The translations under genes and the position numbers were made by a program. The notes beneath the pieces are model-generated. The model ran no database searches. It had not been told where the DNA came from and was given only the letters and a program-made list of their open reading frames with translations. A stretch of DNA of 64,000 bases from Bdellovibrio sp. GT3 (GTDB lineage: Bacteria; Bdellovibrionota; Bdellovibrionia; Bdellovibrionales; Bdellovibrionaceae): assembly GCF_037996765.1 (NCBI RefSeq), contig NZ_JBBNAD010000005.1, positions 652,001 to 716,000 on the forward strand, given 5' to 3'. Each line of letters starts with the position of its first letter. Within the stretch, counting starts at the first letter, position 1. Below, piece after piece: positions 3,676-18,661 of the stretch.

Positions 3676-6024
3676 ATGCATGAACGTCTTCCCCGCGAAC
3701 TTACGCAACTTGTAGATTGGTCAGTAACGGAGTTGGGGAAGGTGATCGAATTTGAACTCGGCAAAGCCGGGTTCGTTCGAATCGAAAAAATCAGACGCTA
3801 TGTTAAGTCTGACAAATCCAAATCCCTGAAGGGCCTGCAGGCATTGCAGACAGATCTGCAAAAACTTTCAATCTCAGAACAATATCAAATCGCACATGCA
3901 TTCTCGCTGATGCTGGAAATTATAAACTCCTGCGAATCTGCGTATCGCGCTTATCGTTTGAAATCAGAATCCTCAGCCGCAAAGGACCAGAAGCACACAT
4001 TTGGTCGTACAATCCATGTGTTGACCGCTCATCCGACAGAATCCCGGAATGCCGACACGCTTTACTACTTTAAGAAAATTCAAGCGCTACTGGAGCGCCG
4101 CCTTTTCGGCGAAAGCTTATCTGATCAGGCAGAGCTAAACGTTCTGTTGAAATGGGCTTGGCATATCCCGATGTCGAAGCAAAGAAAACCCTCTGTCATG
4201 GACGAGGCAGAGTATGTTTATGGCTTGGGCCTGCAAGATGAGATCATTGATCTATTCATCCACCAGCGCCAGAAGAAGCAGCCCTTTAACATTCGCACTT
4301 GGGTTGGTGGGGATAAGGATGGTCATCCGGGTGTCGACGAGAAAACGATGATCTCCAGTTTGAATATGTCCCGGGGAATTTTGATAAAATGGCTTTCAAA
4401 ATCTCTTAAGGAATTTCAGCGCGACATGGAGCCACTCGTTTTAGTAAGTGCCCAGGAAAAGCATCACATTGCCCGTATTAAAAGTGAACTTCGGTCCGTT
4501 CAAAAAAGTCTTCGTTCCTTGAAACTGATTCGGACCAGGGATGCGAACCGTTTGCATAAACTTAAGATGGCGATACTAGGACTTGGAAATCAGCATAGAA
4601 AACTTTTTGGGATTGATTCCCCACTTTTACAGCGAATTCAAACGTTCTTAAAAGTATTTCCGGGACTTGTTGTTCCGTTGGAGATACGCGAGGACAGCAG
4701 CTTGGTCCACGAGGCAGCTCTGGACAGCGGCAGTAAGCTTAATATCGCCAGAATGTTGAAAATGTTAAGTCGTGTGTCCCCCGAACATGATCCCAAAAAC
4801 TATGTTCGAGGTTTTGTGCTTAGTAACTGTGAGTCTGTTCAGGATATCGAAGCGGGAATGAAGCTGACGAAGCGTTATCTGGGCGACTACCGACTGCCCG
4901 TCGTTCCCCTTTTTGAAAGTTCGCACTCTTTGTCCAACGGAAAGGATATCATTGCGGAATTCCTAAAAAGTGTCCGCAGAAAATCCATCGTAAAACGAAA
5001 GTGGTCAGGGGATCTGGAAGTAATGCTGGGTTACTCGGACTCAGCCAAGCAAAATGGATCGTTTGCATCCAGATATTTGGTAAAAACTGCGATTTCTGAG
5101 ATAGAAAAAGTGATCATGAAGCACGGCCTGCGACCTGTGTTCTTTCATGGCAGCGGTGGCAGCATTGAGCGTGGAGGTGGTTCGGTTCAGGAGCAGACGG
5201 ATTGGTGGCCGCTATCTGCTTTGCTAAATGTGAAAGTGACCGTTCAGGGAGAGATGATTTACAGAAGCTACTCAGCGCCAGAAATCTTGCAGCGACAGCT
5301 TGAAAGAATTATGAATGCCAGAGATCGAAAGTCTGCAAAGGCAGAAGGAAAAACATCCAAGAAAATCGATATGGCTTTAAAGCGAATGGCGGATTTCACC
5401 CAGAGCCACTATCAAATGACCCTGCAGGATCCTGACTTTTTGAAACTGATTGAAGAGGCTACTCCCTATTCATACTTAAAGAATTTAAGACTGGGATCGC
5501 GTCCCTCCAAAAGACAGGGGTCCGCAGTTGAGATAAAAAGCTTAAGGGCAATCCCATGGGTGCTATGCTGGACACAAACACGTACGTTGTTCCCGACATG
5601 GTGGGCGTTTGGAAGTTACTGGAAAAGTTTAAAAGAGGCGCAGAAGAAGGAATACAGATCTGCATTCAGGCAATCTCAGCTTTTCAGTTCCTACATTAAG
5701 GCGTTGGGTTTCACGCTTGAGAAAATGGATTTGAATATCTTTGCGCTATACGTTTCAAATTCCAAGCTGCCGGATGAGGTTAAGACCAAGTATATCCGAG
5801 AGTTCCAGCAGGAGCATAAGTCCTGCATCAAGGCAGTGCGCGAACTGACAGGAGAAAGGAATCTGCTGTGGTATCGGCCATGGCTTGGAACCAGCATTTC
5901 TTTGCGCTCGCCCTTGATTGACCCCCTCAATGTCCTTCAGCTGATTGCTTTGAAAGAAAAGAACCTGCTGTTGTTAAGGGAGACGGTGACGGGTGTTGCG
6001 AGCGGGATGTTGACCACCGGATAG
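3676..6024 (+). CDS. ppc: divergent phosphoenolpyruvate carboxylase
   Basis: PEP carboxylase makes oxaloacetate from PEP and bicarbonate to refill the citrate cycle. Recognisable blocks, in order, are TAHPTE (catalytic His119), EIRED (Arg338), VPLFESSHSL, GYSDSAKQNG, FHGSGGSIERGGG (His491), VTVQGEMI, SRPSKR, LRAIPWVLCWTQ and a C-terminus ASGMLTTG like the usual AGMRNTG. At 782 aa it is about 100 residues shorter than the E. coli enzyme. The conserved glycine loop is altered: the position equivalent to E. coli Arg581 is Ser493, the Gly before the second Arg is Glu498, and the usual QPPGS segment is replaced by EQTDWWP. Activity or allosteric control may therefore differ. It follows queF by 9 bp. 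Confidence 0.9.
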   Translation: MHERLPRELTQLVDWSVTELGKVIEFELGKAGFVRIEKIRRYVKSDKSKSLKGLQALQTDLQKLSISEQYQIAHAFSLMLEIINSCESAYRAYRLKSESSAAKDQKHTFGRTIHVLTAHPTESRNADTLYYFKKIQALLERRLFGESLSDQAELNVLLKWAWHIPMSKQRKPSVMDEAEYVYGLGLQDEIIDLFIHQRQKKQPFNIRTWVGGDKDGHPGVDEKTMISSLNMSRGILIKWLSKSLKEFQRDMEPLVLVSAQEKHHIARIKSELRSVQKSLRSLKLIRTRDANRLHKLKMAILGLGNQHRKLFGIDSPLLQRIQTFLKVFPGLVVPLEIREDSSLVHEAALDSGSKLNIARMLKMLSRVSPEHDPKNYVRGFVLSNCESVQDIEAGMKLTKRYLGDYRLPVVPLFESSHSLSNGKDIIAEFLKSVRRKSIVKRKWSGDLEVMLGYSDSAKQNGSFASRYLVKTAISEIEKVIMKHGLRPVFFHGSGGSIERGGGSVQEQTDWWPLSALLNVKVTVQGEMIYRSYSAPEILQRQLERIMNARDRKSAKAEGKTSKKIDMALKRMADFTQSHYQMTLQDPDFLKLIEEATPYSYLKNLRLGSRPSKRQGSAVEIKSLRAIPWVLCWTQTRTLFPTWWAFGSYWKSLKEAQKKEYRSAFRQSQLFSSYIKALGFTLEKMDLNIFALYVSNSKLPDEVKTKYIREFQQEHKSCIKAVRELTGERNLLWYRPWLGTSISLRSPLIDPLNVLQLIALKEKNLLLLRETVTGVASGMLTTG

Positions 6025-6155
6025 GGACCGAAAGGGCCTCCTGTCCATGTTTTAGACACGCATTAAACCTTTGGGAGCAATAGGCTGTCATAGAGGAAGG
6101 TCCGATTCTTGTAACTGCCTTGGTGGATTTATTTATCGAACCAAAGGATCTAAAG

Positions 6156-6893
6156 ATGAAGAACTTTTCAATTCGCGGCGTACTTACTGTTTCCCTTCTA
6201 TTGATCGGGCAAAATTCCTTTGCGAAGATCAGTGCTGATCAAATCAAACAATGTATTGCGAATGAAATGAGCGTGGTTCAGGTGATTCACCCTCTTAAGG
6301 CTGAATTCCTAAGATTGGAACGCCAGGGATCTGTTGCAGAGCTAATTGAAATTCTAAGATCCAATTCTGAATCCCTGAGAGCACTGTCTTCAGCTGGTTT
6401 GAAAAGCGCTGAGGGGCAGTCATTGAGCCGAGAAATTGCCGACGTTAAATCGGTTTTGGCAAACGCGGATTCGTGTGAGTCAGCTCGCAAAGCAGCTCTG
6501 AACTTTTTGAATGTTTATGATAAGAAACCACTTCTTTCTTTGAATGTATTTTTTGAGAACGACCAGGGTTTGAATGCTGAAACTGAAGAGTGGAAAAGCG
6601 AAGCGCTGAAGGCACTTAAAACTGCTGGATACAACAAGGCTGCATCCACTTTGGATATTACTCAGCAACCGGCGCTGACTTTGCTGACGGTCTCTGGTGA
6701 GACAACATCGGTATTAAGCGAACAGTTCTCCTTACCATACGATGACACTATGAAGTCGGCGCTTAAAGCTATCGTAGGCAACGACGCTTCTGCCAATATC
6801 CTTGAAGAAAGACTGGCTGAAAAGATTCGTAATGAGTCTTTGACAAGAATGTCCAAGATCCTAGGTTCTGTTGACCAGCTTGTTAGCCGATAA
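6156..6893 (+). CDS. exported hypothetical protein
   Basis: The 245-aa product has a clear Sec signal peptide (MKNFSIRG, a Val/Leu-rich core, then SFAKIS), so it is probably periplasmic or secreted. The mature part is helical with many Ala, Leu, Glu and Ser residues, and I recognise no domain. ATG 6156 is chosen over an upstream TTG at 6120 because it starts the signal peptide and has AAAGGA at the right distance. The 3' end overlaps the convergent acyltransferase-like gene by 33 bp, so no terminator fits between them. Confidence 0.75.
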   Translation: MKNFSIRGVLTVSLLLIGQNSFAKISADQIKQCIANEMSVVQVIHPLKAEFLRLERQGSVAELIEILRSNSESLRALSSAGLKSAEGQSLSREIADVKSVLANADSCESARKAALNFLNVYDKKPLLSLNVFFENDQGLNAETEEWKSEALKALKTAGYNKAASTLDITQQPALTLLTVSGETTSVLSEQFSLPYDDTMKSALKAIVGNDASANILEERLAEKIRNESLTRMSKILGSVDQLVSR

Positions 6894-7928
6894 TTTAAAC
6901 GAACGAAGTCTGATAACCAGCAGCCGAGCAAGCACCTCGGTTGCTGCAACCATACCAATCCAAAAAAGATCCATAAGCCTAGGGTTCGCCCGAAACTCTA
7001 ATGACAGCTGGGACGCCCAGGATAAAAAGATAAATTGGATAAAATAACAAAGACCAAAATGTCGATTCCAGGCAAGCTCAGAGTTCATCCGCACAATCTT
7101 AAATCGGTTCAGGAATTGATTTACTGAATTCAAACAGGAAATCCGAATCCAAATCAATATCACCGCGAAACGACTCCAAAAAAACCAAACTGATCCAGAG
7201 AATACGTAGTAATAAAAGCCCGTCGAAGACACTGAAACATCGCTTCTAAACGGAAATGCAGCAATCAATCCAGCCGCCACGGCCAGCAGCACTGGCACTT
7301 CGTATTTGAGGCCTGTAAATACCAGCGAATTCATAGAAAGATCTCGTATCACTCGCCCTATCGAGAACCCTAGAACTGGAATTGAAAGCCAAGGCAGAAG
7401 TCCCCAACCGATAGTCGTTGTGGCATCCAAATCCCCGATCAGCATCTGGCCAAGGATTGGACTGTCTGATGGTTTGAGCGACTGAAATACTTCAACAGGA
7501 ATAAAGAGCAAAGACAAAGAGAGCGCACTCAGTGCGAGCAGAGCTTTTTTATTGTTGGGAAGAATTTGTACGGTCAGCAAGCTTACCAATAGATACCCGT
7601 ATAAATTCCAGCTCCAACTTTGATAATCAGTTTGCGACTGATCGTGGATCATCATTCCCACAAGCCCGATTGCGACCAGCAGATATCGCTGCCAGTTGAT
7701 GTCTTTTCTTGAAAGACCAATCAAAAAGAATGAGATAAGCGCCAGGATGATTCCGGAATAGCTCCAGTAGTCGACAAAGAACTGAGTCAGATAGGCATAA
7801 ATGGACTGACTTTTAGTAAAGAACATACGGTCTTCGCCAAAAGCGGACTCCCAAACGTGATAGAATGTAATCACTATCACGCTGAAGGTTCTTAGAATAT
7901 CCAGAGCCAGGAATCTTCGCTGATTCAT
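6861..7928 (-). CDS. multi-pass membrane acyltransferase-like protein (paralog 1)
   Basis: A protein of about 355 aa with roughly ten hydrophobic segments. The start LALDILRTFSVIVITFYHVW resembles the acyltransferase-3/OafA group, where an Arg and a His in the first helix are important. It is clearly paralogous to the protein at 14817-15848: both share DxLR...FYHVW or YFHVW, SFFLIGL, a GWxLxPWLxxPVL block and a SxLAWNxHFGxxYF block near the C-terminus. ATG 7928 is chosen because it forms an ATGA overlap with the stop of the upstream synthase-like gene and has AAGGA before it; a GTG at 7934 is the alternative. It is the last gene of a minus-strand operon starting with prepilin-like genes. Its substrate is unknown. 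Confidence 0.7.
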   Translation of the reverse strand: MNQRRFLALDILRTFSVIVITFYHVWESAFGEDRMFFTKSQSIYAYLTQFFVDYWSYSGIILALISFFLIGLSRKDINWQRYLLVAIGLVGMMIHDQSQTDYQSWSWNLYGYLLVSLLTVQILPNNKKALLALSALSLSLLFIPVEVFQSLKPSDSPILGQMLIGDLDATTTIGWGLLPWLSIPVLGFSIGRVIRDLSMNSLVFTGLKYEVPVLLAVAAGLIAAFPFRSDVSVSSTGFYYYVFSGSVWFFWSRFAVILIWIRISCLNSVNQFLNRFKIVRMNSELAWNRHFGLCYFIQFIFLSWASQLSLEFRANPRLMDLFWIGMVAATEVLARLLVIRLRSFKLSANKLVNRT

Positions 7929-9460
7929 TGCCACATCCTTGGTAGCTGCGGCTTAAACAAGGAGTTTACCAGAAACTTTTCCACAGGTGGCAGAGGAATT
8001 ATTTTGTATTCACTTTTTGGATCATTGCCCAAGTTCATTACTTGGGAATCAGATGCGAAGACAAAGCTTTCAGATTTTTCAAACGCCACGATGTTTGAGA
8101 ATGGCACCTCTGCAAGCGTTGAGTGAATGATGTCAGCACTTTCGTTGGTTGGGAAGTCAAAGACGATGAAGCCCTGTGGATCCAGTTTGCGTTTCAGGAT
8201 TCTATAAAATTCAAGACTGTAAAGCTTTGAAAGCTCCACGCTATAGGGGTACGGGAAATCCAAGAACACCGCATTCCATGTACGCTTGCTTTCGCGCAGA
8301 AAATGGAAGGCGTCGTCAGCAATCACTTCCACGCGATTGTTGTGAAGGGAGTCTTCATTCAGGTTGCGCCAACGGGGGTCTTCTTTTGCAAGTTTCAAAA
8401 CCTGTGGATCCAATTCGACAAGAGTTATTTCAGAGTCGGATGGAAACTTTTTTAAAACATCACGCAACAACAAGCCGTCACCCGCTCCCAAGATAAGGAT
8501 CTTGGTGGGCGCAATGCCGGACAGATGTGTCGCTCCCTCCAAGAAGGCTTCGTGATAAGACTTTTCATATCTGGAATCAAACTGGTATTGCCCGTTCAGC
8601 CAAAGGCTGAAGTAAGATTCTCCGTCGCCTTGTCCTTCGACCACGTCAATGGCCTGATAGGGGCTATGATGTCTGGTAACGTGGATATCGTTCTTCAGCC
8701 CCCGAAGGTATTCCACCACTTCTGAGGAACTGGAAATGATTTTTGGGTAGTCCACGAAATAGCGCATGCGCAAGGACCACTGTTGCAGCGGTATTTGAAT
8801 CAGCGAAAAAGCCAGGATGAATGCAGATGCGGCGATTGATCTTTGTAGGTGACTTCTTTTATCAGGTAACTGTGTCGCCAGGTAAATACAGATGCTGCCG
8901 CTCAAAAGGGAAATCAGAATGGCGCTTCCATAGATCTCCAAATTCGGAATAAGTATCAGCGGAACAACGACAGCTGATGCCAATGCACCAAAGTAGCTAA
9001 AGGCCAGAATTCTATTCAGTTGAATATTGTCTTCAGTGTCTTTGCGTAAGCGGAATAGCAAGGGTGTTTCGTATCCGGTCAAATAGCCCAAGGTTAGAGA
9101 TATCGCTCCGCTGCTTAAGACGAAAACGATCATCAGTAAGCCAATAGGAATTCGAACTCCGTAGAATTCTATAAGTCCAAGGCTTGGAATAAAGAATAAA
9201 TATGTGACCAGCATGGGTGAAATCGCACCCAGAAACATCAACAGGAATTCGACCCGGAACAATCCTGATAAAGCGTCTTTGGCGTTAGAGGACTTTTTGC
9301 TTCCCAAACCAATTCCATAAATGAAAAGGGCCGAGGATAGACAGAAGCCAATGACTTCCTCCTGCAGGAATACGGCAAACGTCTTTGCCATTACGCTTTG
9401 GTAGGCAAATCCACAAAAGGACAGGGCAAAAGAAAGTAGTTTTAATTTGCGATTATCCAC
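7925..9460 (-). CDS. membrane-bound spermidine-synthase-like protein
   Basis: The 511-aa product has an N-terminal domain of about seven membrane helices (residues 1-210) and a C-terminal cytoplasmic domain of the polyamine aminopropyltransferase/methyltransferase fold. The latter shows YHEAFLEGATHL, the nucleotide loop ILILGAGDG (usually GGGDG), VELDP, and LDFPYPYSVELSKLYSLEFYR. In true spermidine synthases the last block reads D-x-x-D-P; here the first Asp is kept but the second, which binds the amine substrate, is Tyr. It may therefore modify something other than putrescine. The start is GTG 9460 within the end of the upstream gene (19-bp overlap), and the stop overlaps the next gene as ATGA. 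The gene lies inside a prepilin-containing operon. Confidence 0.75.
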   Translation of the reverse strand: MDNRKLKLLSFALSFCGFAYQSVMAKTFAVFLQEEVIGFCLSSALFIYGIGLGSKKSSNAKDALSGLFRVEFLLMFLGAISPMLVTYLFFIPSLGLIEFYGVRIPIGLLMIVFVLSSGAISLTLGYLTGYETPLLFRLRKDTEDNIQLNRILAFSYFGALASAVVVPLILIPNLEIYGSAILISLLSGSICIYLATQLPDKRSHLQRSIAASAFILAFSLIQIPLQQWSLRMRYFVDYPKIISSSSEVVEYLRGLKNDIHVTRHHSPYQAIDVVEGQGDGESYFSLWLNGQYQFDSRYEKSYHEAFLEGATHLSGIAPTKILILGAGDGLLLRDVLKKFPSDSEITLVELDPQVLKLAKEDPRWRNLNEDSLHNNRVEVIADDAFHFLRESKRTWNAVFLDFPYPYSVELSKLYSLEFYRILKRKLDPQGFIVFDFPTNESADIIHSTLAEVPFSNIVAFEKSESFVFASDSQVMNLGNDPKSEYKIIPLPPVEKFLVNSLFKPQLPRMWQ

Positions 9461-10134
9461 TTAGAGATCAGCTCCTGATAAACAGACAAGTTGTACAAAA
9501 CCCCAAATGTGACTGTGGAAAAGATTGTGCATAACAGGGGAAGTTCAATTTTGCGAAGCTGCGATTCCCTGCCGGCCCAGTAAAAGCAGCAAATGAATGC
9601 CAGACCCAGATTCATCAAAGCCAGAATTAGGTTTACCGATATTGAGCCAAACTGCCTGTTTAAAAAAAGCGCAAACAGAATACCACCAGCAAACATGCCT
9701 GCATAATCCAGAAACAATGCTCTTTCGTTCTGATCTTTTGCATTGGTCTCTGTTTGCATAACCTGTAAAAGCAAGGGCAGTTCCATGCCCGAAAAGAATC
9801 CAATCAGAAAAATCAGGGAATAGCACAGGGGTACGGATACGAACTTCGATCCTGAATCAAAGTATACAAACAGAAGCGGAGACACAATTGCCAGCAGGGA
9901 GATGATCACTTCGATCCAGATAAAAACTTTTTTGGAGTTTAAGCGCACAGGAGTGAAGTAAGCTCCCGCACCCATCGCGGAAATATAGATCCCCGTTGTG
10001 ACCGTATACTGCAATACGACGTTACCCCAAAGAACAGAGAGAATATTGGCCAGTACCAATTCATAGGTGTAACTGCAGAAAGCCGTTAAAAAAACCAGGA
10101 TAAGAATAAAGCGAAATCTTGAGTCCGCCTTCAC
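9442..10134 (-). CDS. membrane protein resembling the N-terminal domain of membrane spermidine synthases
   Basis: A 230-aa protein with about seven hydrophobic helices. The beginning (YELVLANILSVLWGNVVLQY, then TTGIYISAMGAGAYF) has the pattern of the membrane domain that precedes the catalytic domain in membrane-bound aminopropyltransferase-like proteins, and it resembles the first half of the next gene. It has no catalytic domain. The pair thus looks like a duplicated membrane module, or two subunits of one complex. The GTG start at 10134 is one base after the stop of the prepilin-like gene upstream, and the 3' end overlaps the synthase-like gene by 19 bp, so translation is probably coupled. 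Confidence 0.7.
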   Translation of the reverse strand: MKADSRFRFILILVFLTAFCSYTYELVLANILSVLWGNVVLQYTVTTGIYISAMGAGAYFTPVRLNSKKVFIWIEVIISLLAIVSPLLFVYFDSGSKFVSVPLCYSLIFLIGFFSGMELPLLLQVMQTETNAKDQNERALFLDYAGMFAGGILFALFLNRQFGSISVNLILALMNLGLAFICCFYWAGRESQLRKIELPLLCTIFSTVTFGVLYNLSVYQELISKWIIAN

Positions 10135-10135
10135 C

Positions 10136-10903
10136 CTAATACCCCTGCGTTGTGGAGGCAGGAACTGTGAACAAATATGTTTGGCGAATCAATTCGGAGT
10201 TCGAACAAGACGAACCATTCTTTACACAGAATGCAACTTTCAGGCATTGGTACTGTGGTAGTGAACAATTTGGTGCTTCAGGACGATTCCGTAATGTCGT
10301 GTTAAGGGGAATGCTATTGACTGAAGTCATGGCCGGAAGTGCTGGTATGAAGACATCAAGGTTTGCGTGGGCTTGGGGCAAATTGATTTCAGCCATAACC
10401 TGTCTGGTGGCTTCTTTAAATATTTCAAACTGATCTGGTTTTTCAGAGCTATTGCTATGGTAGGCGACCATCCACTCATCTTGCGTCTGCAGATTAACTT
10501 GCAGGTTGCCGGGTTCGACACAGATATCAAGACCCGCATTCAGGGATCTTTTAGAGCACAATCCCGCAGCGTATTCCCAGCACAGTCGAATCGTTTTAGC
10601 CCCGCTTCCAATTTTGATTACTTTTCCGGGGCAGCCATAGTCATCATTTGCGGCATTGCCTGAGGTTTGTGGCGGCATATCGCGAAGGTAGTTCGCCTTG
10701 TCATAGGCGCCTTTTAGAGAAACTGCGAAGTTTTCAATGGCAATTTCGGAATCAAAGAATGCGCGGGACTTATCGTAGCTTTTATTAAGAGTTCCCATTT
10801 TAGAAACGACACCGACGATAATAACGCCGACAACGACTGCGATGGCAATGACCAGCATCGCCCCAGCAAAACCTTTTTTCGATCGCAATAGTTTAGGCAT
10901 CAT
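10136..10903 (-). CDS. prepilin-like membrane-anchored protein (PilX-like)
   Basis: The 255-aa product starts with a short basic leader (MMPKLLRSKKG) followed directly by a hydrophobic helix (FAGAMLVIAIAVVVGVIIVGVV), the layout of a type IV prepilin or minor pilin. The usual Glu at +5 of the mature protein is missing, as it is in some PilX/GspK-type minor pilins. Several Cys pairs in the extracellular part (YGCPG, IRLCWE, LCSKRS, DICVEP, NCSLPQYQC) suggest disulfides. It lies between another prepilin-like gene (stop 12 bp upstream) and the membrane synthase-like pair. AGGAG precedes the double ATG. Function is inferred from the N-terminus and context only. Confidence 0.65.
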   Translation of the reverse strand: MMPKLLRSKKGFAGAMLVIAIAVVVGVIIVGVVSKMGTLNKSYDKSRAFFDSEIAIENFAVSLKGAYDKANYLRDMPPQTSGNAANDDYGCPGKVIKIGSGAKTIRLCWEYAAGLCSKRSLNAGLDICVEPGNLQVNLQTQDEWMVAYHSNSSEKPDQFEIFKEATRQVMAEINLPQAHANLDVFIPALPAMTSVNSIPLNTTLRNRPEAPNCSLPQYQCLKVAFCVKNGSSCSNSELIRQTYLFTVPASTTQGY

Positions 10904-10914
10904 AAAATAGACTC

Positions 10915-11940
10915 CTAGTTTCTCTTAAGCTGCCCGCTCGGATAAGAAGGTTTTAGAAAATAAATTAAATCATAGGGACGACGGTAAATGGGTCTTCTTT
11001 GATTGCGCAGGGTAACCGGAGTTTCAGATGACTGCGCCATTTGTGCCGAGGAAAACCCAAGTACATTATCCCGAAAAGTGACTCTTACGACCCTTTCGAC
11101 ATCTTTATAGGGGCTGGTCGTTTTGCATTCAGCTTGTGTCATCGCAGCAGGTGGGCACCAGGTATAATCGCGCTTGCTGTTTTCCTGACCCAGGTATTCG
11201 CGGACGGTGATCTTAAAAGTCACCGAGGACAGTCTAAGTCTGTTGGATAACGCCGGGTCCTGATCGGGATTATTCATGTCGAATCTGGTGACTTGTCTTT
11301 CCGTGGCTTGAAAGTCAACGATGGAGCCAAACCACAGGTCATCCCGTGAAGGACCAATTGTGACCGTGCCCGCAGCTTGTGAGCGACCGAGATCGATATA
11401 CAAGACTCCGAAGGTTTTGGCTGTGGGCCTTTGAAAATAAATTCCCGTAGGCAGAAACCGATCACCCAAGCTGGGAACGGCTGTGTACTCGCTGTGCATA
11501 TTGTCTCGTAAAAAGATGCCCACCGTGTCCACTGGAGCAGGATTTGCGGTGGCATTAAATCCAGCCGAAGCCAGGTAATCGGCTCTGACGAAGCCGGTAT
11601 TCTGGCTGCTTCCGGTTGAGTTCCAGTTATTAAGGTTGCGCCCACTGCCATCTTCGACGTTTATGCCTTGAGAAGCGAAGTGTTTCAGATAAAACGAAAT
11701 ATCGTTGAGATCAGACTCCGACTGAATTCTGTTGGTCAGTGACTCACTTTGATTCGTGGCCATCGAGATCAATGCTCCCACACCATACAAAAGAATCGAC
11801 CCTAGGACTACCGAAAGCAAAAGTTCGATCAGGGAAAAACCTTGTTGCCCCAATTTCCCACTGCTAGAATTTGAAGTACATCTTGAATGGCTTACTGTGG
11901 GGGATTTTGAATGTTTCGAAGCGACAGGTCTAACAGTCAT
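10915..11940 (-). CDS. prepilin-like protein with N-methylation motif (PilW-like)
   Basis: A protein of up to 341 aa with a classical prepilin cleavage site: QQG, then FSLIELLLSVVLGSILLYGVGAL. Gly is at -1, Phe at +1 and Glu at +5. Size and position match PilW-type minor pilins. The start is uncertain. ATG 11940 gives a 34-residue leader and would overlap the divergent gene by 30 bp; a TTG at 11853, four codons before the cleavage Gly, would give a short leader. The C-terminal part has CPPAAMTQAECK and ends RRPIYRRPYDLIYFLKP. It is the first gene of a five-gene minus-strand operon. Confidence 0.72.
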   Translation of the reverse strand: MTVRPVASKHSKSPTVSHSRCTSNSSSGKLGQQGFSLIELLLSVVLGSILLYGVGALISMATNQSESLTNRIQSESDLNDISFYLKHFASQGINVEDGSGRNLNNWNSTGSSQNTGFVRADYLASAGFNATANPAPVDTVGIFLRDNMHSEYTAVPSLGDRFLPTGIYFQRPTAKTFGVLYIDLGRSQAAGTVTIGPSRDDLWFGSIVDFQATERQVTRFDMNNPDQDPALSNRLRLSSVTFKITVREYLGQENSKRDYTWCPPAAMTQAECKTTSPYKDVERVVRVTFRDNVLGFSSAQMAQSSETPVTLRNQRRPIYRRPYDLIYFLKPSYPSGQLKRN

Positions 11941-14814
11941 AAATATATCTCGGGCTTTTCAGCTCTTGAAATGATGGTTGCGATCGGAATCCTTGCCACG
12001 ATCTTTATTCTAGCAATGCCTTTCTTTAGCCAACAAGGGAAAATTATTAAAGAGATGAGAACCTCGGCGAGCTGCCAGGCGGTTCTCGATACTGCTTTTT
12101 CGCGAATTAACTCATTGGGAAATTCACTGGACAGCTATCCACCCAAAATGAACACCAGCATGGCGGGCGTAAGTGGAGCCGGTGCTATTGGTCAGAGAGT
12201 GTTTCTTCCACCCGATATCCCGGCTGGCTCTTACTCGTTTGATCCGCAGTTCAATGCACAAAGAAGTAAGATGTTTGATCTGGCCCCTGGCAGGGTTCTG
12301 TATTCGGCAAATCCTGGTAAAACCATCAAGATTCCTCAAACAGCGACGACCACCAAAGACGTTCCAATACGAAATGACGGTTTGACGCTTTACACTCCCC
12401 TGTTGCTGAAAGGCTCGATGGAGTACTTGGCAACGAAGTACAATTCTGGACATTGCAATGCCTTCTCGCCAGTGAGTTTGTTGACTAGTGTGGATAGTCA
12501 GGCACTAAGCAGTCAATTTCAGGGTGGTTTGAAAAATCTGAATCTATCCTTGAAAGTGAATCGTTACGATCTTGCTTCGAATAGCATGAGCACCGCTTGT
12601 GGCAATTACTGGCCTCGTCCTCGAAATGGTGAGCGATCCAATGTAACGTATGAACCGCAGTTTGGATACTCACCTCAAACCAGACAGATCGTTGGGATTT
12701 TCCCTAGTTGGATGAATGATAAAGACGGTCTGCGTGTAACCCTGCGTGCGAACTTCATAAATGATAAAGGACAGTCTGAAACCTGCGAAGGCACGAAAGA
12801 TTTCTCGTTGCCGGAAGATAAGCAAAATGTCGTCGATTTCTTTTATGACGTGAATTATGTGAAAACGTCAGCGGCCACACCGGGTGCGATCATTGATAAC
12901 ACAAATCGCACGAATGGATTGCGCGCCGGAACGAAGTGTTCAGGATCGCAGGCGAATTGCCTGGGTCATCCGTTTGAAACGATCTTAACGAATCTTCAAC
13001 CATACAATGCTTCAAACCCCAAGTGGCCCGAGAATCGCGACAGGCCTTTATGTTCGCAAACGGCTCAGAACTATATTGATCTGGTTGTCACTTTCCGCGT
13101 CTATAACATGCATAAAGACGGTGGCGTGGTGCCGATGTGTTTGGACACTTCCAGACAGTGGTTTAAAAACTCACCAGGCAATTGGTGTCCGGGATCTTAC
13201 AACGGGGGAGCTGAGACCAGCTTCGATAAATCCTGGGATATGCGTTACACCGGCTGGGTGCCTTGTGAGCAGATGCAGTTCTGTAACTCCAGGCCCGATC
13301 GAGTGGAGGTTATCAAATCTTCCGGTACGAATTTCAAGTTCCCGGGTATGAATGTTCAACAGCCATACGTGGAATACAAATACACGTACAACCAGATTCG
13401 CGGCGATAAAGCCAACCCGCGTATGTGGGGTTGTGAAATGAAATTTGGTATTGCGATGATCGATCTAGCGGGAAATCTGAGCTATGTACCCGCGCAGGAA
13501 AAAATGATGGATCAACCGGGCATTGGTGGCGACAGACGTCCACCAATTAAAGAGATCAATCCCCATGTCTATTTCAAACCACCTCCTTGTTACACGTGTA
13601 ATTGCAAACCTTGTAAGGGTGGTAAAGGTTTGTTTGGTGGATTGTTTAACTGGGTGTTGTTTGCAGTACTCGTTATCGTAACGATGGGTGTTGGTGCTAT
13701 TGCCTGGATTTCCATTACCGCACTAACGATTGCCATCGCATCTGGTGTGGCAGCAGTTATCTGCTATAACGGCGGCTTGGGTTGCGCCAGCGACGGGGGA
13801 CGCAACTATGTTCCTGACTCTGCCGGCGGGAAATACCGGTCTTGCGATGACAGTAATAACGGATGCAAGTGTGGTAAGAAGTGTAACATCATTCGCCCGC
13901 CAAGTCCTGGATGGTCCGCTCCACTTGACGATGCGATGGACATTTCGCAACTGGAAAAAAACTCCTGTGTTCCAGGCAGTACATTCTATGTCGATAACAC
14001 CGCTTACGGAAGTTTGAATGGAATCAAGCCGCAGTTGGGATACAAAACTTCGAATGGAACCGGTAAGGGTTATACCTACAACATGGATCCAAATGCGAAG
14101 GTCACTCCTGGGGATGAATTGATTTATACGGCTTTCAACTCCAAAAATCAGCAGTTCTGTTATGTGGCCGTGCGCTGCTCAGCAGGTAAGTTTCAGGTGA
14201 TCAAAGAGAGCAGTGAAATATTGGATGATAATAATCTGTATCCGCTGATGGGTTGTTATCCGGTGAAAGTCGGCAAGAAGATTAATTTCAACAGTTCCAA
14301 ACCGGGTATTTCACAGGGCGGAAATGCTTGTCTGGAAGTTCAGTTCAATAAGGGGCCGCAGAATCCGCAAAATAATCAATTGTGGAATTGGTCGAACTTT
14401 AATGAACAGTGTAGTGTTACGACAAGCACCAGCACTCTATCAAATGATCCAAGAGTTGTGGCCGGGAACTGTCCTGTGACTTCGGCAATTGTTCCGGCGG
14501 GTGCTCAGTATGTGTCTACTGGTTCTGGTTGTGCGCTGCCAACGGCGGATCCAAATGATTTGGTGGGTATGAACTTCGCCTGTCAGCATTCCAAGATTTC
14601 CTGGGATCCATGTCTAAACTCGAATTCCAAGACGGGTCCTATGACATGTCCTAAATGGTGCTACGCTGATTGTAAGGTTCCTGAATACGTACCGGAGCAT
14701 CCTTGGATCGATGCGCCTCATAACGTTCAAAAATACTATGAGAACATGGGTTCTGGAGATGCGGGATTGCCGTTCTGCACGATGGATAGAAACCTATTTG
14801 ATGTTATTCTTTAA
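11911..14814 (+). CDS. giant prepilin-like protein, Cys-rich, 967 aa
   Basis: The N-terminus is a type IV prepilin signature: a basic 15-residue leader ending in SG, then FSALEMMVAIGILATIFILAMPFF with Glu at +5. The rest is far larger than any ordinary pilin (usually 120-250 aa, minor pilins up to about 400). It includes many Cys residues, a C-x2-C-x-C-x2-C cluster at residues 560-568, two adjacent hydrophobic helices (about 577-618) and a second Cys cluster (CKCGKKC) soon after. It might be a tip adhesin carried on a pseudopilin stem. GGGGGA before ATG 11911 supports the start. The stop is two bases before the next gene, an acyltransferase-like paralog. I know no named family with this architecture. 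Confidence 0.78.
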   Translation: MFRSDRSNSHKYISGFSALEMMVAIGILATIFILAMPFFSQQGKIIKEMRTSASCQAVLDTAFSRINSLGNSLDSYPPKMNTSMAGVSGAGAIGQRVFLPPDIPAGSYSFDPQFNAQRSKMFDLAPGRVLYSANPGKTIKIPQTATTTKDVPIRNDGLTLYTPLLLKGSMEYLATKYNSGHCNAFSPVSLLTSVDSQALSSQFQGGLKNLNLSLKVNRYDLASNSMSTACGNYWPRPRNGERSNVTYEPQFGYSPQTRQIVGIFPSWMNDKDGLRVTLRANFINDKGQSETCEGTKDFSLPEDKQNVVDFFYDVNYVKTSAATPGAIIDNTNRTNGLRAGTKCSGSQANCLGHPFETILTNLQPYNASNPKWPENRDRPLCSQTAQNYIDLVVTFRVYNMHKDGGVVPMCLDTSRQWFKNSPGNWCPGSYNGGAETSFDKSWDMRYTGWVPCEQMQFCNSRPDRVEVIKSSGTNFKFPGMNVQQPYVEYKYTYNQIRGDKANPRMWGCEMKFGIAMIDLAGNLSYVPAQEKMMDQPGIGGDRRPPIKEINPHVYFKPPPCYTCNCKPCKGGKGLFGGLFNWVLFAVLVIVTMGVGAIAWISITALTIAIASGVAAVICYNGGLGCASDGGRNYVPDSAGGKYRSCDDSNNGCKCGKKCNIIRPPSPGWSAPLDDAMDISQLEKNSCVPGSTFYVDNTAYGSLNGIKPQLGYKTSNGTGKGYTYNMDPNAKVTPGDELIYTAFNSKNQQFCYVAVRCSAGKFQVIKESSEILDDNNLYPLMGCYPVKVGKKINFNSSKPGISQGGNACLEVQFNKGPQNPQNNQLWNWSNFNEQCSVTTSTSTLSNDPRVVAGNCPVTSAIVPAGAQYVSTGSGCALPTADPNDLVGMNFACQHSKISWDPCLNSNSKTGPMTCPKWCYADCKVPEYVPEHPWIDAPHNVQKYYENMGSGDAGLPFCTMDRNLFDVIL

Positions 14815-14816
14815 GC

Positions 14817-15848
14817 ATGACTGAAAAAAGCAATCATAGAATCTATGGGTTTGATCTTCTCAGAATCGCCACGATGATGGCGATTCTGTATTTTCACGTT
14901 TGGCAGTTTACGTTTTATCAGGATGTGATCTCGCTGCCGCCGGAAATTTCCAATTACCACAATCTTACCGGATGGGTTGGAGATACGTTCAAGTATGGCG
15001 GTCTGTTTATCGTGGCCCTCAGTTTTTTTCTGATTGGTTTAAAAGTCAGAGCCAAACAATCCATGCGCTTCTTTGTTCTTATTTTTGGATTGATAACATT
15101 GTCTGTTTCAAATGCTCCGGCCCCGATGGATCCCAGCACATGGGATTGGGATGTTTATTCCTATTTGATATTTGCCCTGCTGCTGGTATTGGCATTGCCA
15201 CGAAATCTGATTCTGCGCACGGCTTTGTCCATGGCAAGTATTCTGATATTAAGCATTCCTTTTGAATGGTATGAAGGAATGCTGCAGATAAAAGACGCGG
15301 TTCAGTTTTCGGGTTGGAATTTAATGCCGTGGCTTGCGGTGCCGGTGCTGTTTCATTCACTGGCAGTGATATGGTCACAAAAGTTCAAAGATAACGTTAA
15401 AGCGGTAAAAAACTGGGAATGGGCTGTCTGGATTTCTGCAATTGTTCTGCTGTTTGTGATCACTCCAGACTATGGACCTTTCCCTGCGGGTCCTGGCTTT
15501 GAGGCTTATGTTTTCAAGCAGAAGCCATTGATGTTCTGGAAGCACTTTGTGGTGTTCTTGTTTTTAATGCGAGTCAGTCTTGATCCAAGAATCAACTCAG
15601 CATTGGGAAACATAAAAGGCATGAGCTGGTTTTCCAATCTGGCTTGGAATAAGCATTTTGGTGTCGCCTATTTCATGCATCTTGCATTTTTGCCCATGGG
15701 TCTTCATTTCATGGACTTCTGGGGGCACTATCCGCGGGCCTTTGAGTGGCTGTGGCTATTTATCTTTGTCGCTGTCGAAGTCGTGGTGCGATCGATCTAT
15801 GCTTTGCAGATTGCGTTTAAAACAAAAGTTGTTCGATTGCTTAGTTAG
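14817..15848 (+). CDS. multi-pass membrane acyltransferase-like protein (paralog 2)
   Basis: This 343-aa protein with about ten membrane helices is a paralog of the one at 6861-7928. Shared blocks are FDLLRIATMMAILYFHVW, LSFFLIGL, a W-D-W-D-V-Y-S-Y-L segment, GWNLMPWLAVPVL and SNLAWNKHFGVAYF. The fold resembles acyltransferase-3 or related membrane O-acyltransferases, though I cannot assign a substrate. It starts two bases after the stop of the 967-aa prepilin-like gene and lacks its own clear ribosome-binding site, so it is probably translationally coupled and works with that protein. The 3' end overlaps the convergent receiver-CheX gene by 4 bp. Confidence 0.7.
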   Translation: MTEKSNHRIYGFDLLRIATMMAILYFHVWQFTFYQDVISLPPEISNYHNLTGWVGDTFKYGGLFIVALSFFLIGLKVRAKQSMRFFVLIFGLITLSVSNAPAPMDPSTWDWDVYSYLIFALLLVLALPRNLILRTALSMASILILSIPFEWYEGMLQIKDAVQFSGWNLMPWLAVPVLFHSLAVIWSQKFKDNVKAVKNWEWAVWISAIVLLFVITPDYGPFPAGPGFEAYVFKQKPLMFWKHFVVFLFLMRVSLDPRINSALGNIKGMSWFSNLAWNKHFGVAYFMHLAFLPMGLHFMDFWGHYPRAFEWLWLFIFVAVEVVVRSIYALQIAFKTKVVRLLS

Positions 15849-16735
15849 ACTGGAACCGCAATGACGGTCAGGTAGAACTTTCCTTTGGTTGTTGCAAAGG
15901 GGATCAGCATTCCCGCTGATCCTTGAGGGCAGGCGATCAGGCTTCCCGCTCCAATCAGAACTTTTGGAACTGTCAGCTGCACACCGAAATTGGTGATTTC
16001 TGATTTGGCGTTACCGAAAATAATATTATTGATCTCACCGACTGCGTCCTGATTCTCGGCATTGAGTTCGGTCTGTTCTTCCATCAGCATGACGGAGACC
16101 ACTTCCAAATAGCTGCCTTTATCGAAAGAAATTGCCAGGTATCCAGAGTACGACTGCGACTTGATTTCCACGACAGAGGAAATTTCTCCCATCAAAGATT
16201 CATGCGGGGATTTAGTTTCTGCCTTACCCATGGTGATATTCTGCACGCCAAATTGCGCGAATACATTGGTCGTAGCTTTGATGACGGCATTAATCACGCG
16301 AACATCCACGGCATACTTGCTGGAAGCGGTAGCGGTGGCTACGGCCGCGGGCCCGCTATTCAGGATCTTAATCATGGTCTGAATCAGCTCATCCGCGGTG
16401 ATGGGCTTTTTAAGCATTGTGCAGTGGCGAAGGGAGTCTGGCAGATCTGTGCTATCACGTTGTGTGACCACGATCAGGCTTGCGTCCTGGGTGTTTTTAT
16501 AGGTGTGCAGACCATAGACGAAACCACCATCCATAAGACGTGGCACCTCTGTATCAATTAGAACCATATCGAATTTTTGATTCTCAGTTTTGATCGCGGC
16601 TTCAGCACCGTCTTTGGCGCGCACGACGACCGGGGCAATATCAGAGTCCCGCAATAGCTTGCCTAGCGGCTCTCGCACCAAATTATCAAGACCAGAGTTG
16701 TTATCAACAATAAGGATCGTTTTTCGAGTCTTCAT
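15845..16735 (-). CDS. response regulator with C-terminal CheX-like domain
   Basis: A 296-aa fusion. Residues 1-125 are a CheY-like receiver: acidic pocket near Asp11, phospho-acceptor Asp61 in DMVLID, Thr91 in VVTQRDS and switch Lys110 in LKKP. Residues 145-296 look like the CheX/CheC phosphatase fold, with the helix DAVGEINNIIFGNAKSEI carrying the Glu-x2-Asn pair needed for dephosphorylation in CheX. Such proteins remove phosphate from CheY-type regulators, or hold a CheX domain under receiver control. No kinase gene is adjacent, so the partner is elsewhere. It is transcribed convergently to the pilin-like cluster with a 4-bp overlap. Confidence 0.8.
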   Translation of the reverse strand: MKTRKTILIVDNNSGLDNLVREPLGKLLRDSDIAPVVVRAKDGAEAAIKTENQKFDMVLIDTEVPRLMDGGFVYGLHTYKNTQDASLIVVTQRDSTDLPDSLRHCTMLKKPITADELIQTMIKILNSGPAAVATATASSKYAVDVRVINAVIKATTNVFAQFGVQNITMGKAETKSPHESLMGEISSVVEIKSQSYSGYLAISFDKGSYLEVVSVMLMEEQTELNAENQDAVGEINNIIFGNAKSEITNFGVQLTVPKVLIGAGSLIACPQGSAGMLIPFATTKGKFYLTVIAVPV

Positions 16736-16864
16736 GGTTTAGTGGCCCGCTCATAAGTGGTTTGGGATTGTGAGGGAATACATGAAGATGCAAGATACCC
16801 TAACTAATTATCGGTCCTTGATGGCAGCGACTTAATGATTCCATGAGAGAGAAATTTGGATTGT

Positions 16865-16902
16865 GAGAATTCTCGGGAAAGCCCCGAAGATGAGTAATTC
16901 TC
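16865..16902. other. nested inverted repeat, possible structured RNA or operator
   Basis: Outer arms GAGAATT (16865-16871) and AATTCTC (16896-16902) enclose inner arms TCGGG (16873-16877) and CCCGA (16883-16887). All pairs are perfect. The element lies in the 246-bp non-coding stretch upstream of the receiver-CheX gene. No T-run follows on either strand, so it does not look like a simple terminator. No protein-coding gene is supported in the rest of this gap. Confidence 0.4.
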
Positions 16903-16981
16903 GATAGGTTTATTTTAATTTACCCCTCTAAATAGGTTTTAATTTGATACGGGATCTTGCATTCTAAAAAAGATGCCAATT

Positions 16982-17302
16982 TTATTTTGTATACTCACCA
17001 TTCTTAAGTCCCGAGCGAACCCTATCAATAATTGCTTGATCTGCTTCGCTGCGGGAGATCGGAGTTCCACTTTCAAACTCTTGGCTGGAAATTATTCGTT
17101 TGAACTTTGAGATTTCCTTTTTTTGTATGCTCGCTGCTGTTTTTCTTGGAGTTTTCTGAGTACGTAAGGGCATGGCTTTCGAGGTACTTTCTATTGAGAT
17201 TTGATTTTGTTTTTCAGTAGTCAGCTTACTCGGAATATCAAATATAAATGAGGCCCCAATTGATGCTACAGTAAAGTATGCCGCAAGCTTTTCTATATTC
17301 AT
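16982..17302 (-). CDS. small AT-rich hypothetical membrane-anchored protein
   Basis: A 106-aa frame with an N-terminal hydrophobic segment (MNIEKLAAYFTVASIGASFIF) and a basic, Ser/Thr/Lys-rich remainder. ATG 17302 is preferred over the longer frame starting at 17347 because GGAG lies at good distance before it and the hydrophobic segment then begins near the N-terminus. Local composition is more AT-rich than the neighbouring genes. It lies downstream of the 3' end of tRNA-Ser, a common landing site for mobile DNA, but no integrase is visible. I do not recognise it and it may be poorly conserved. Confidence 0.45.
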   Translation of the reverse strand: MNIEKLAAYFTVASIGASFIFDIPSKLTTEKQNQISIESTSKAMPLRTQKTPRKTAASIQKKEISKFKRIISSQEFESGTPISRSEADQAIIDRVRSGLKNGEYTK

Positions 17303-17461
17303 TGAATTTGCTCCGTAGTATCTAGTTCGTCCTGTATACATCGGCATGTTTACCTAGATATTAAAGGATACTCCAATAGTGGGAAAGTTTTCCCAGTAAG
17401 ACGTTATTAGTGCTGCTGAATGAGCAGCTTTAAGAGCTTGATGTGGTGTCTTTAGCGGAAA

Positions 17462-17641
17462 ATGATAGGGCTATTTGAGGAGCGAACCAAAACAGTGACT
17501 AAGGCCTTGAAAGATAGATTTAAACGCGAGGGAAGTATCGAGATTTACAAAGGACGGCGTGCTGAAGCTGAAAGAAATCTGAAATGGCAAAATGCGGGGA
17601 TCATGTCCCGCTATCTTTATAGTGCCGTTCTTAAAAAGTAG
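17462..17641 (+). CDS. possible 59-aa basic protein
   Basis: A short frame begins at ATG 17462 with GCGGAA just before it and ends at TAG 17639-17641. The product is basic and helical (TKALKDRFKREGSIEIYKGRR, then ERNLKWQNAGIMSRYLYSAV), and codon choice looks like that of the surrounding real genes. It resembles no family I can name and could be a remnant of a longer gene. It ends shortly before the terminator of the oppositely oriented tRNA-Ser. Confidence 0.4.
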   Translation: MIGLFEERTKTVTKALKDRFKREGSIEIYKGRRAEAERNLKWQNAGIMSRYLYSAVLKK

Positions 17642-17651
17642 GCCCTAAAAA

Positions 17652-17680
17652 CACAAAAACCTGCTCTAGGCAGGTTTAAA
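17652..17680 (-). terminator. rho-independent terminator of tRNA-Ser
   Basis: Read on the minus strand, a CCTGC/GCAGG stem with a short loop is followed by TTTTTGTGTTTTT. It sits directly after the CCA end of the tRNA-Ser gene, as expected for its terminator. Confidence 0.7.
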
Positions 17681-17771
17681 TGGCGGAGAAGGAGGGATTC
17701 GAACCCTCGGTACACTTTTGGTGTACGAGCATTTAGCAAACGCTTGGATTCAGCCACTCTCCCACTTCTCC
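17681..17771 (-). tRNA. tRNA-Ser (anticodon GCU)
   Basis: The minus strand folds as a class II tRNA. The acceptor is GGAGAAG/CTTCTCC with discriminator G and encoded CCA (17681-17683). The anticodon loop is TTGCTAA with anticodon GCT, a long variable arm (TCGTACACCAAAAGTGTACCGA) marks it as serine, and the T arm contains GGGTTCGAATCCC. It reads AGC/AGU serine codons. Confidence 0.95.
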
Positions 17772-17924
17772 GCGGGCTCTTTTTCAAGCTGAGAAGCTAA
17801 ATTGCCATAGCCCGTGCCCCAAATCAAGGATTGGGGGGCTTATAACGGGGTGCTTTTTGCAATTTTCTTTAAGAATGCTTGATTTTTCGATTACGGCGGC
17901 TTAAACATACGTCTCTTTCACAGT

Positions 17925-18001
17925 GCACTCGTAGCTCAGCTGGATAGAGTACTTGACTACGAATCAAGTGGTCAGAGGTTCGAATCCTCTCGAGTGCACC
18001 A
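17925..18001 (+). tRNA. tRNA-Arg (anticodon ACG)
   Basis: A complete class I tRNA: acceptor GCACTCG/CGAGTGC, D arm TAGCTCAGCTGGATAGAGTA, anticodon stem TTGAC/ATCAA around loop with ACG, T arm AGAGGTTCGAATCCTCT, discriminator A and encoded CCA at 17999-18001. ACG, with A34 edited to inosine by TadA, reads CGU, CGC and CGA. The 153 bp before it hold no gene; a weak TTGATT/TAAACA pair at 17879-17907 could be its promoter. Confidence 0.96.
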
Positions 18002-18081
18002 TTTTTTTCCTTTTTAATCCCATAAATTCAATACCTTACGAAACCAAAAGGCATTACTCTGTTTTCCGTAACGGAGGACGC

Positions 18082-18534
18082 ATGGATTTTAAGTTTTGGC
18101 TCAAGGTGGCTTTCATGATTGGTTCATTTGGACTGGTTATCTATGGAATGCAGCAATTAAGATCCTCTCAATTCGCCCGTGATGCTCAAAAAGACGATAG
18201 TGCCCTGTCTTTATTGTTGGGTGGAGAAACGCGTCCCTTGAATTGGTGCCCGGCCGACACGAAAAAAGTCGAAATCCTGAATGAAAAGGGTGAAGTTCAA
18301 AAGACCCTGGAGTCGGTCCAAGATATCAGCTCGGCCTGCGAGATTATGATTGGGTCCATTTCGGAAGAAGTGTTGAAGACCTCTCAGTTTTCCCGTCGCT
18401 TGGTGGCAACGGACGCCAAGGGAGCGGCTAAAACCATGGAACAGGTCCCAAATACATCATTTTTCAAAGTCGACGACATGCCTCTAAGCTCGACCTTGCT
18501 GGAAAAAGTCTTAAAGCGCCTGGAACAGCCCTGA
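18082..18534 (+). CDS. small membrane-anchored hypothetical protein
   Basis: The 150-aa product starts with one membrane helix (FWLKVAFMIGSFGLVIYGM) and continues as a soluble domain, probably periplasmic, with Cys residues in LNWCPAD and SSACEIM. ATG 18082 is preceded by GGAGGAC at ideal spacing. The open frame extends upstream into tRNA-Arg, but that part is clearly not protein-coding. It sits between two tRNA genes on the same strand and may share readthrough from tRNA-Arg, which lacks a clear terminator. No family is recognised. Confidence 0.7.
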   Translation: MDFKFWLKVAFMIGSFGLVIYGMQQLRSSQFARDAQKDDSALSLLLGGETRPLNWCPADTKKVEILNEKGEVQKTLESVQDISSACEIMIGSISEEVLKTSQFSRRLVATDAKGAAKTMEQVPNTSFFKVDDMPLSSTLLEKVLKRLEQP

Positions 18535-18541
18535 TTTCTGT

Positions 18542-18570
18542 TTGACAAGATAGGTCCAAACTAATAATTT
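18542..18570 (+). promoter_or_regulatory. sigma-70-type promoter for tRNA-Asn
   Basis: TTGACA at 18542-18547 is a perfect -35 hexamer, followed after 17 bp by TAATTT at 18565-18570. The tRNA-Asn gene starts 16 bp later, which fits the expected start of transcription. Confidence 0.6.
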
Positions 18571-18585
18571 GGCTTTCACCGATGT

Positions 18586-18661
18586 TCAGGAGTAGCTCAG
18601 TCGGTAGAGCAAGCGGCTGTTAACCGCTGGGTCGGGGGTTCGAGTCCCTCCTCCTGAGCCA
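18586..18661 (+). tRNA. tRNA-Asn (anticodon GUU)
   Basis: A full class I tRNA: acceptor TCAGGAG/CTCCTGA, D arm TAGCTCAGTCGGTAGAGCA, anticodon stem GCGGC/GCCGC-type pairing around CTGTTAA with anticodon GTT, T arm GGGGGTTCGAGTCCCTC, discriminator G and encoded CCA. A hairpin terminator follows 10 bp later. Confidence 0.96.

Follow-up and report, generated by a model that had tools for sequence, protein, structure and literature searches.

Two divergent prepilin arms in Bdellovibrio sp. GT3 carry a spermidine-synthase-like membrane pair and two acyltransferase-like membrane proteins

We analyzed a 64,000-nucleotide stretch of the Bdellovibrio sp. GT3 genome (NCBI RefSeq assembly GCF_037996765.1, contig NZ_JBBNAD010000005.1, contig positions 652001-716000; hereafter the window), which belongs to a genome of 3.58 Mb (G000). 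Seven open reading frames (ORFs) occupy window positions 6861-15848 as two divergent arms. The minus arm encodes PilW341, PilX255, TM230, SPD, and AT-minus, and the plus arm encodes BIG967 and AT-plus. The seven products, their lengths in amino acids (aa), and the basis of each assignment are as follows.

6861..7934, minus strand: AT-minus, 357 aa, TmAT-like multi-pass membrane protein with a DxxRx10H motif (family alignments; fold tested on its paralog AT-plus)
7925..9460, minus strand: SPD, 511 aa, spermidine-synthase-like protein whose N-terminal half lies in the membrane and whose C-terminal domain is of the aminopropyltransferase type (Spermine_synth, E 3.4e-17)
9442..10134, minus strand: TM230, 230 aa, stand-alone version of the SPD membrane half (PRK03612 match; profile comparison)
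10136..10903, minus strand: PilX255, 255 aa, GspK/PilX-like prepilin without a glutamate at position 5 (Glu5) (cleavage site; hhalign to the PilW profile)
10915..11940, minus strand: PilW341, 341 aa, prepilin with a G34/E39 motif, GFSLIE (Pfam N_methyl)
11911..14814, plus strand: BIG967, 967 aa, large prepilin containing 36 Cys and a candidate for a tip or adhesin subunit (N_methyl in a genome search; alignment)
14817..15848, plus strand: AT-plus, 343 aa, TmAT-like multi-pass membrane protein, D-LL-R16-x10-H27 (structure model and motif)

An original prediction, made from the sequence alone, had described three prepilins at the center of two tightly packed divergent arms, and all seven ORFs are arranged in this way. 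Within each arm, neighboring genes are separated by at most 11 bases or overlap slightly: there is a 10-base overlap between AT-minus and SPD and a 19-base overlap between SPD and TM230, whereas the gaps are 1 base (TM230-PilX255), 11 bases (PilX255-PilW341), and 2 bases (BIG967-AT-plus). The divergent PilW341 and BIG967 genes share their 5′ ends (window 11911-11940), so the start or promoter of each lies inside the ORF of the other, and the same start overlap is readable in a relative (L068). A promoter and terminator scan gave no excess over shuffled sequences.

PilW341 passes the Pfam N_methyl model at 26.7 bits (cut-off 21.2). BIG967 scores 15.3 bits as a protein, which is below this cut-off, and 21.7 bits in the genome search, which passes it; within its GFSALE motif, G15 and E20 are invariant in 7/7 aligned sequences. 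Both proteins have the G-1 cleavage site, the hydrophobic helix, and the Glu5 that is usual in prepilins. BIG967 carries no Pfam domain other than the prepilin signal and has a central hydrophobic stretch at about residues 571-608. An initial scan of genome contigs with BIG967 returned no match, and its predicted structure was unusable (predicted local distance difference test score [pLDDT] of 34), with no solved relative found. PilX255 matched no family. Its G|F site is present and Glu5 is absent, the arrangement of GspK/PilX-type subunits, and hhalign pairs its profile with that of PilW at a probability of 86 (E 4.5e-6). From their sequences, the three prepilins, one lacking Glu5 and one with a 950-residue Cys-rich body, resemble a GspK/J/I-type tip set.

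The original prediction placed one multi-pass acyltransferase-like family at the end of both arms. AT-minus and AT-plus are indeed 29-31% identical, and both carry DxxRx10H as read from their sequences. In an alignment of 19 family members, R16 is nearly invariant and H27 is invariant (19/19). An AlphaFold2 model of AT-plus (pLDDT 87, predicted template modeling score 0.87) matched nine human HGSNAT chains with Z scores of 13.8-15.2 over 289-298 of 343 residues (root-mean-square deviation of 4.4-4.6 over ~292 residues). GWT1 followed at a Z score of 11.8, and then unrelated entries at ≤4.9. Foldseek alone gave no match for AT at E ≤0.001, the AT profile matched no solved sequence, and neither window protein matched Pfam AT3 (Acyl_transf_3) or HGSNAT_cat; one AT relative (L124) gave a weak HGSNAT_cat match (E 0.0032). 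One report on the TmAT superfamily (PMC12423673) gives DxxR in transmembrane helix 1 as a superfamily motif, with DxxRx10H as the AT3 type, and states that members can be missed by sequence models. We therefore assign the AT proteins at the superfamily level only, by fold. Together, the TmAT fold (HGSNAT Z score of 15) and the motif back the acyltransferase assignment. The most likely role of AT is thus to transfer an acyl group of acyl-CoA to the far side of the membrane.

The minus arm had also been predicted to encode a membrane spermidine-synthase-like protein and a stand-alone relative of its membrane domain, and profile comparison upholds this. SPD (E 1.5e-72) and TM230 (E 3.6e-33) both match PRK03612, each under the cut-off (for SPD, 244.7 of the 472 bits set for the NCBIfam equivalog), and they match each other with an hhalign probability of 99.9. 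The two share one membrane fold and are often fused in tandem. In the membrane-domain motifs of TM230, D143 is invariant and E118 nearly so. The best solved relatives of the SPD profile are aminopropyltransferases (3anx, E 2.9e-32), and a plasmid search with SPD returned only relatives of <60% identity.

To compare active-site residues, we aligned SPD homologs (duplicate records L186, L171, and L165_10599 excluded). The catalytic base of aminopropyltransferases is given as Asp173 of the human enzyme in PMC12812037. The corresponding Asp401 of SPD is kept in 19/19 pilin-type rows, as are Asp328 and Asp383; the same 19/19 holds for the GDG Asp. SPD has both the Spermine_synth domain and the catalytic Asp of the aminopropyltransferase family. 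The second Asp of the DxxDP motif, which lies in the gatekeeping loop, has a role in diamine binding. At this position (Asp401 +3), pilin-type rows have Y in 10, F in 6, and D, E, or L in 1 each; the window protein has Y, and so lacks the residue that marks a spermidine synthase proper. The same position is D in 39/45 rows outside the labeled groups and Y in all 11 rows of the SpeD-fused group (see below). With the catalytic residues kept and the gatekeeping Asp replaced, the cofactor chemistry of SPD looks to be retained and its acceptor choice changed, and the altered gatekeeping loop suggests an acceptor other than a free diamine. A tree of 91 SPD sequences splits the transmembrane-partnered enzymes (51 rows) from ordinary ones (40 rows) with support of 100/99; because group labels were set by gene content, the splits count as a result and the labels do not. 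The second SPD of L165, labeled as pilin type, groups with the ordinary enzymes.

We then mapped the parts of the block across relatives. The full seven-gene order is found in five genomes of two genera (G000, G011, G022, and G021, and G035 from the other genus). BIG967 has matches in 10/59 relatives, seven strong (G000, G011, G021, G022, G035, G032, and G030) and three weak. Across the class, 26/143 genomes match the AT profile and 46/143 the TM230 profile. In all but two of the 26 AT genomes (24/26), AT and a TM230/SPD membrane domain are encoded ≤10 kb apart; the exceptions are G032 and G126, and in G126 SPD is on a separate contig with an N_methyl match ~0.8 kb away. A prepilin was found in the fetched AT neighborhood of 24/26 genomes, and none in G126 or G101 (the contig ends there). 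Among neighborhoods outside the building of the prepilin models, 11/13 have a prepilin versus ~6% expected per 20 kb, an expectation drawn from N_methyl density that serves as a guide rather than a probability, given stretches of 5.6 to 20 kb and related genomes. The partnership is therefore conserved, and the scattering of genes among relatives that the original prediction named as its refutation was not what we observed. PilD, its N-terminal domain included, is encoded in 25 of the 26 AT-bearing genomes, and a PilB-type ATPase above its cut-off in 22. We had considered that SPD might replace PilD N-methylation cell-wide; the presence of the PilD N-terminal domain in these 25 genomes leaves that idea unsupported.

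A second layout comprises two prepilins, one with Glu5 and one that is GspK-like and has Ser directly following its cleavage site (6/6 aligned); a protein with one transmembrane segment (F6); TM230 and SPD; F5, which looks periplasmic; AT; and, in many cases, F11. The window-type layout is distinguished by BIG967 and PilX255. TM230 and SPD are fused in several second-type clusters (731-775 aa), and L080 carries two TM230-SPD pairs. No Pfam model scored above its cut-off among the members of F5, F6, and F11 scanned. F11 is a His-rich membrane protein with seven transmembrane segments that accompanies AT in many clusters (L075:3424-4434, L076:6588-7577, and L127:15458-16405), and it adjoins AT in G126 (L118).

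The same genome holds a second cluster (L084, G000:C6:74001-94000, 3854-18044) in which prepilins lie beside three large spermidine-synthase-like membrane proteins of 724, 798, and 780 aa, one of them above the NCBIfam MFS_SpdSyn cut-off. The pairing of prepilins with spermidine-synthase-like enzymes may be a recurrent theme. L083 (G000:C6:40001-60000, 3781-14278) carries a prepilin set twice in tandem, each with a ~1020 aa protein that has one transmembrane segment and is related to an 835-aa protein of L084.

An aminopropyltransferase draws on decarboxylated S-adenosylmethionine (dcSAM; SAM for the parent compound), the product of SpeD, and we examined where SpeD occurs. In G058 SpeD follows AT, and in G030 it sits between two ATs; each is the sole SpeD of its genome. 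Among 80 named loci found with SPD (the best 80 of 372), 13 have separate TM230, SpeD, and SPD genes, including loci from Omnitrophota, Gammaproteobacteria, and one Bdellovibrionales record. Adjacent TM230, SpeD, and SPD genes are seen, for example, in L168 (HTCC2080, 6870-11752) and similar loci of marine Gammaproteobacteria and Omnitrophota. In 11 loci, mostly from Bacteriovoracaceae, SpeD and TM230 form a single fused protein; in 11/11 its gene sits between a TmAT-like gene and SPD, immediately ahead of the latter. Their operon (L187, L175, L163, L217, and others; ~4400-12450) runs from a large exported-looking Cys-rich protein through the TmAT-like protein and the SpeD-TM230 fusion to SPD, and the large protein (1131-1376 aa) precedes the TmAT-like gene in 10 of the 11. 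DxxRx10H is at the expected N-terminal place in 10/11 TmAT-like proteins; L217, whose start is cut, matches elsewhere. As a set, these proteins align to AT with an hhalign probability of 45 (E 2.2e-4), and one member matches Acyl_transf_3 below the cut-off (E 0.0053). Homology between BIG967 and the large protein of these loci is not supported: their hhalign E value (0.004) is about that of the unrelated pair AT versus TM230 (0.008). We accordingly keep their likeness as an analogy only, both being Cys-rich with a central hydrophobic stretch.

Our preferred reading, a tentative one, is that the block encodes a pilus-tip cassette together with a dedicated membrane module for aminopropyl and acyl modification. 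It builds on the prepilins, the TmAT fold, the aminopropyltransferase family, the pairing with a transmembrane protein, and the conserved partnership, all of which are established at the level of sequence. The three subunits would be processed by PilD and assembled by a motor, of a pilus or of type II secretion, whose genes lie elsewhere. SPD and TM230 would form a membrane-embedded pair, in which the cytosolic SPD domain would move an aminopropyl group from dcSAM to a membrane-held amine. AT would take an acyl group from acyl-CoA in the cytosol and hand it over, across the membrane, to that acceptor or to a partner of it. The acceptor, which may be a subunit that is exported or a lipid that travels with one, would leave as part of the fibre tip. 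In a more specific version, the target of aminopropylation by SPD/TM230 is the free amine at the N-terminus of processed tip subunits (or another membrane-held residue), and AT acylates the new amine or a neighbor; spelled out to this degree, the proposal is improbable.

Several findings weigh against the preferred reading. By PF02675, 8/26 AT genomes are without SpeD, namely G032, which keeps prepilins and AT and has no SPD, and 7 of the 25 SPD-bearing AT genomes (G041, G101, G102, G121, G123, G126, and G127). G050 has SPD and prepilins, with no SpeD and no AT match; like other SPD genomes that have no AT, it is not counted among the 26. SpeD homologs can also be arginine or ornithine decarboxylases, as described in PMC10407285. 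With the PilD N-terminal domain kept, we see no sign that pilin N-methylation has been replaced. Lastly, prepilin models detected no prepilin in the 11 SpeD-fused loci that have the enzyme set, and across the wider family the acceptor need not therefore be a pilin. The original prediction of a modified fibre therefore stands in part: the partnership of prepilins, SPD/TM230, and the acyltransferase-like family is conserved, whereas a fibre subunit is only a candidate acceptor in view of the 11 loci and the genomes without SpeD. The aminopropyl chemistry that it proposed gains from SpeD inside or fused into related clusters and from the retained catalytic residues, and loses from the seven SPD-bearing genomes without SpeD.

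The 11 loci fit an account in which the enzymes produce and export a small molecule that is no part of the fibre, either a modified polyamine or a lipid bearing an aminopropyl or acyl group, and the prepilins are neighbors since both serve surface contact. The SpeD-TM230, SPD, and TmAT set occurs there mostly with a large exported-looking protein and no detected prepilin, and TM230-SpeD-SPD genes have other neighbors in Omnitrophota and Gammaproteobacteria. In Bdellovibrionales, however, prepilins stay adjacent in 24/26 genomes despite changes in gene order and strand, and we consider the small-molecule account rather unlikely, if the strongest competitor. Genomes that have SPD and no SpeD, together with the replaced gatekeeping Asp, would also suit a SAM-dependent transferase, such as a methyltransferase, acting on a membrane acceptor. 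We regard this as unlikely, since related modules contain SpeD or carry it as a fusion, the catalytic and GDG Asp residues are kept throughout the pilin-type rows, and the best solved relatives of SPD are aminopropyltransferases.

Another possibility is that SPD/TM230 sense polyamines or membrane state, or form a transporter, and so regulate the fibre, as was proposed for membrane spermidine-synthase-like proteins of PspA operons. PMC11237479 describes a spermine/spermidine-synthase-like domain fused to a transporter-like domain with seven transmembrane segments in such operons, and the charged membrane-motif residues of TM230 are kept (D143, E118). The catalytic residues of SPD are kept as well, and none of the 10 proteins scanned from the block and its flanks matched PspA, DUF350, or DUF4178, all of which makes a sensor or transporter a very doubtful explanation. 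Least probable of all is that the parts do not act together and owe their association only to a common location or to transfer. The cassette is patchy, as the counts for BIG967 (three of ten matches weak) and AT illustrate, but its parts stay together through rearrangement, duplication (the two TM230-SPD pairs of L080), and gene fusion across families.

The block is bordered by the following genes, which we place outside it.

3676-6024: phosphoenolpyruvate carboxylase (PEPC)-like gene, 782 aa, divergent (357 of 815 bits, mainly over the C-terminal half of the equivalog model)
6120-6893: protein of 257 residues
15845-16735: response-regulator receiver fused to a CheX domain
17684-18658: three tRNA genes, 2-3 kb past the right end of the cassette

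The receiver-CheX neighbor has a match in 24/24 genomes of the genus, 20 of which are without a strong BIG967 match. When this neighbor was used to look for empty sites, none of the nine other query proteins (PEPC included) was found in six fetched regions.

Type IV pilus tip clusters and pilin-modifying enzymes are known kinds of system. Type IVa minor-pilin/PilY1 tip clusters and the GspI/J/K tip of type II secretion resemble the block in having a small prepilin set apart from the motor; here, one prepilin is large (BIG967) and one lacks Glu5. None of those met in our literature searches has an aminopropyltransferase-like protein and two TmAT-like membrane proteins, as the block does. SPD belongs to the same family as the PRK03612 membrane aminopropyltransferases, with their two-part architecture and catalytic Asp, but it falls below the cut-off, has a second transmembrane partner protein, has its gatekeeping Asp replaced, and lies in a separate tree group. 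The window ATs share fold and DxxRx10H with the TmAT superfamily (AT3/OafB, HGSNAT, and GWT1) but have no Pfam AT3 or HGSNAT match, and they occur as paired paralogs beside prepilins. For operons with PspA, DUF350, and DUF4178, PMC11237479 describes membrane spermidine-synthase-like proteins and suggests aminopropylation of other substrates. The same paper cites Li et al. 2019 for AdoMet decarboxylase gene clusters with proposed non-polyamine aminopropylation. As cited there, these clusters resemble relatives of the block in linking SpeD to a SpeE-like membrane enzyme and in the proposal of a non-polyamine acceptor; their partners are PspA and ATP-grasp proteins, whereas here they are prepilins and TmAT proteins. 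In searches of the open-access literature, we found among the matches listed no description of prepilins united with SPD-like and TmAT proteins, in line with the original prediction, which knew of no described system with this gene set.

If the preferred reading is right, an enzyme module is built into a pilus-tip gene set of Bdellovibrionales, a group that includes bacterial predators, and aminopropyl transfer would be a chemistry not described for pili in the open literature searched. The more specific version, with aminopropylation and acylation of the tip subunits, would, if true, give a charged or lipid-like pilus tip in a predatory lineage. Because SPD, TM230, SpeD, and a TmAT protein are co-encoded or fused in the relatives named above, the block offers a place to test the standing idea that dcSAM is used on non-polyamine acceptors.

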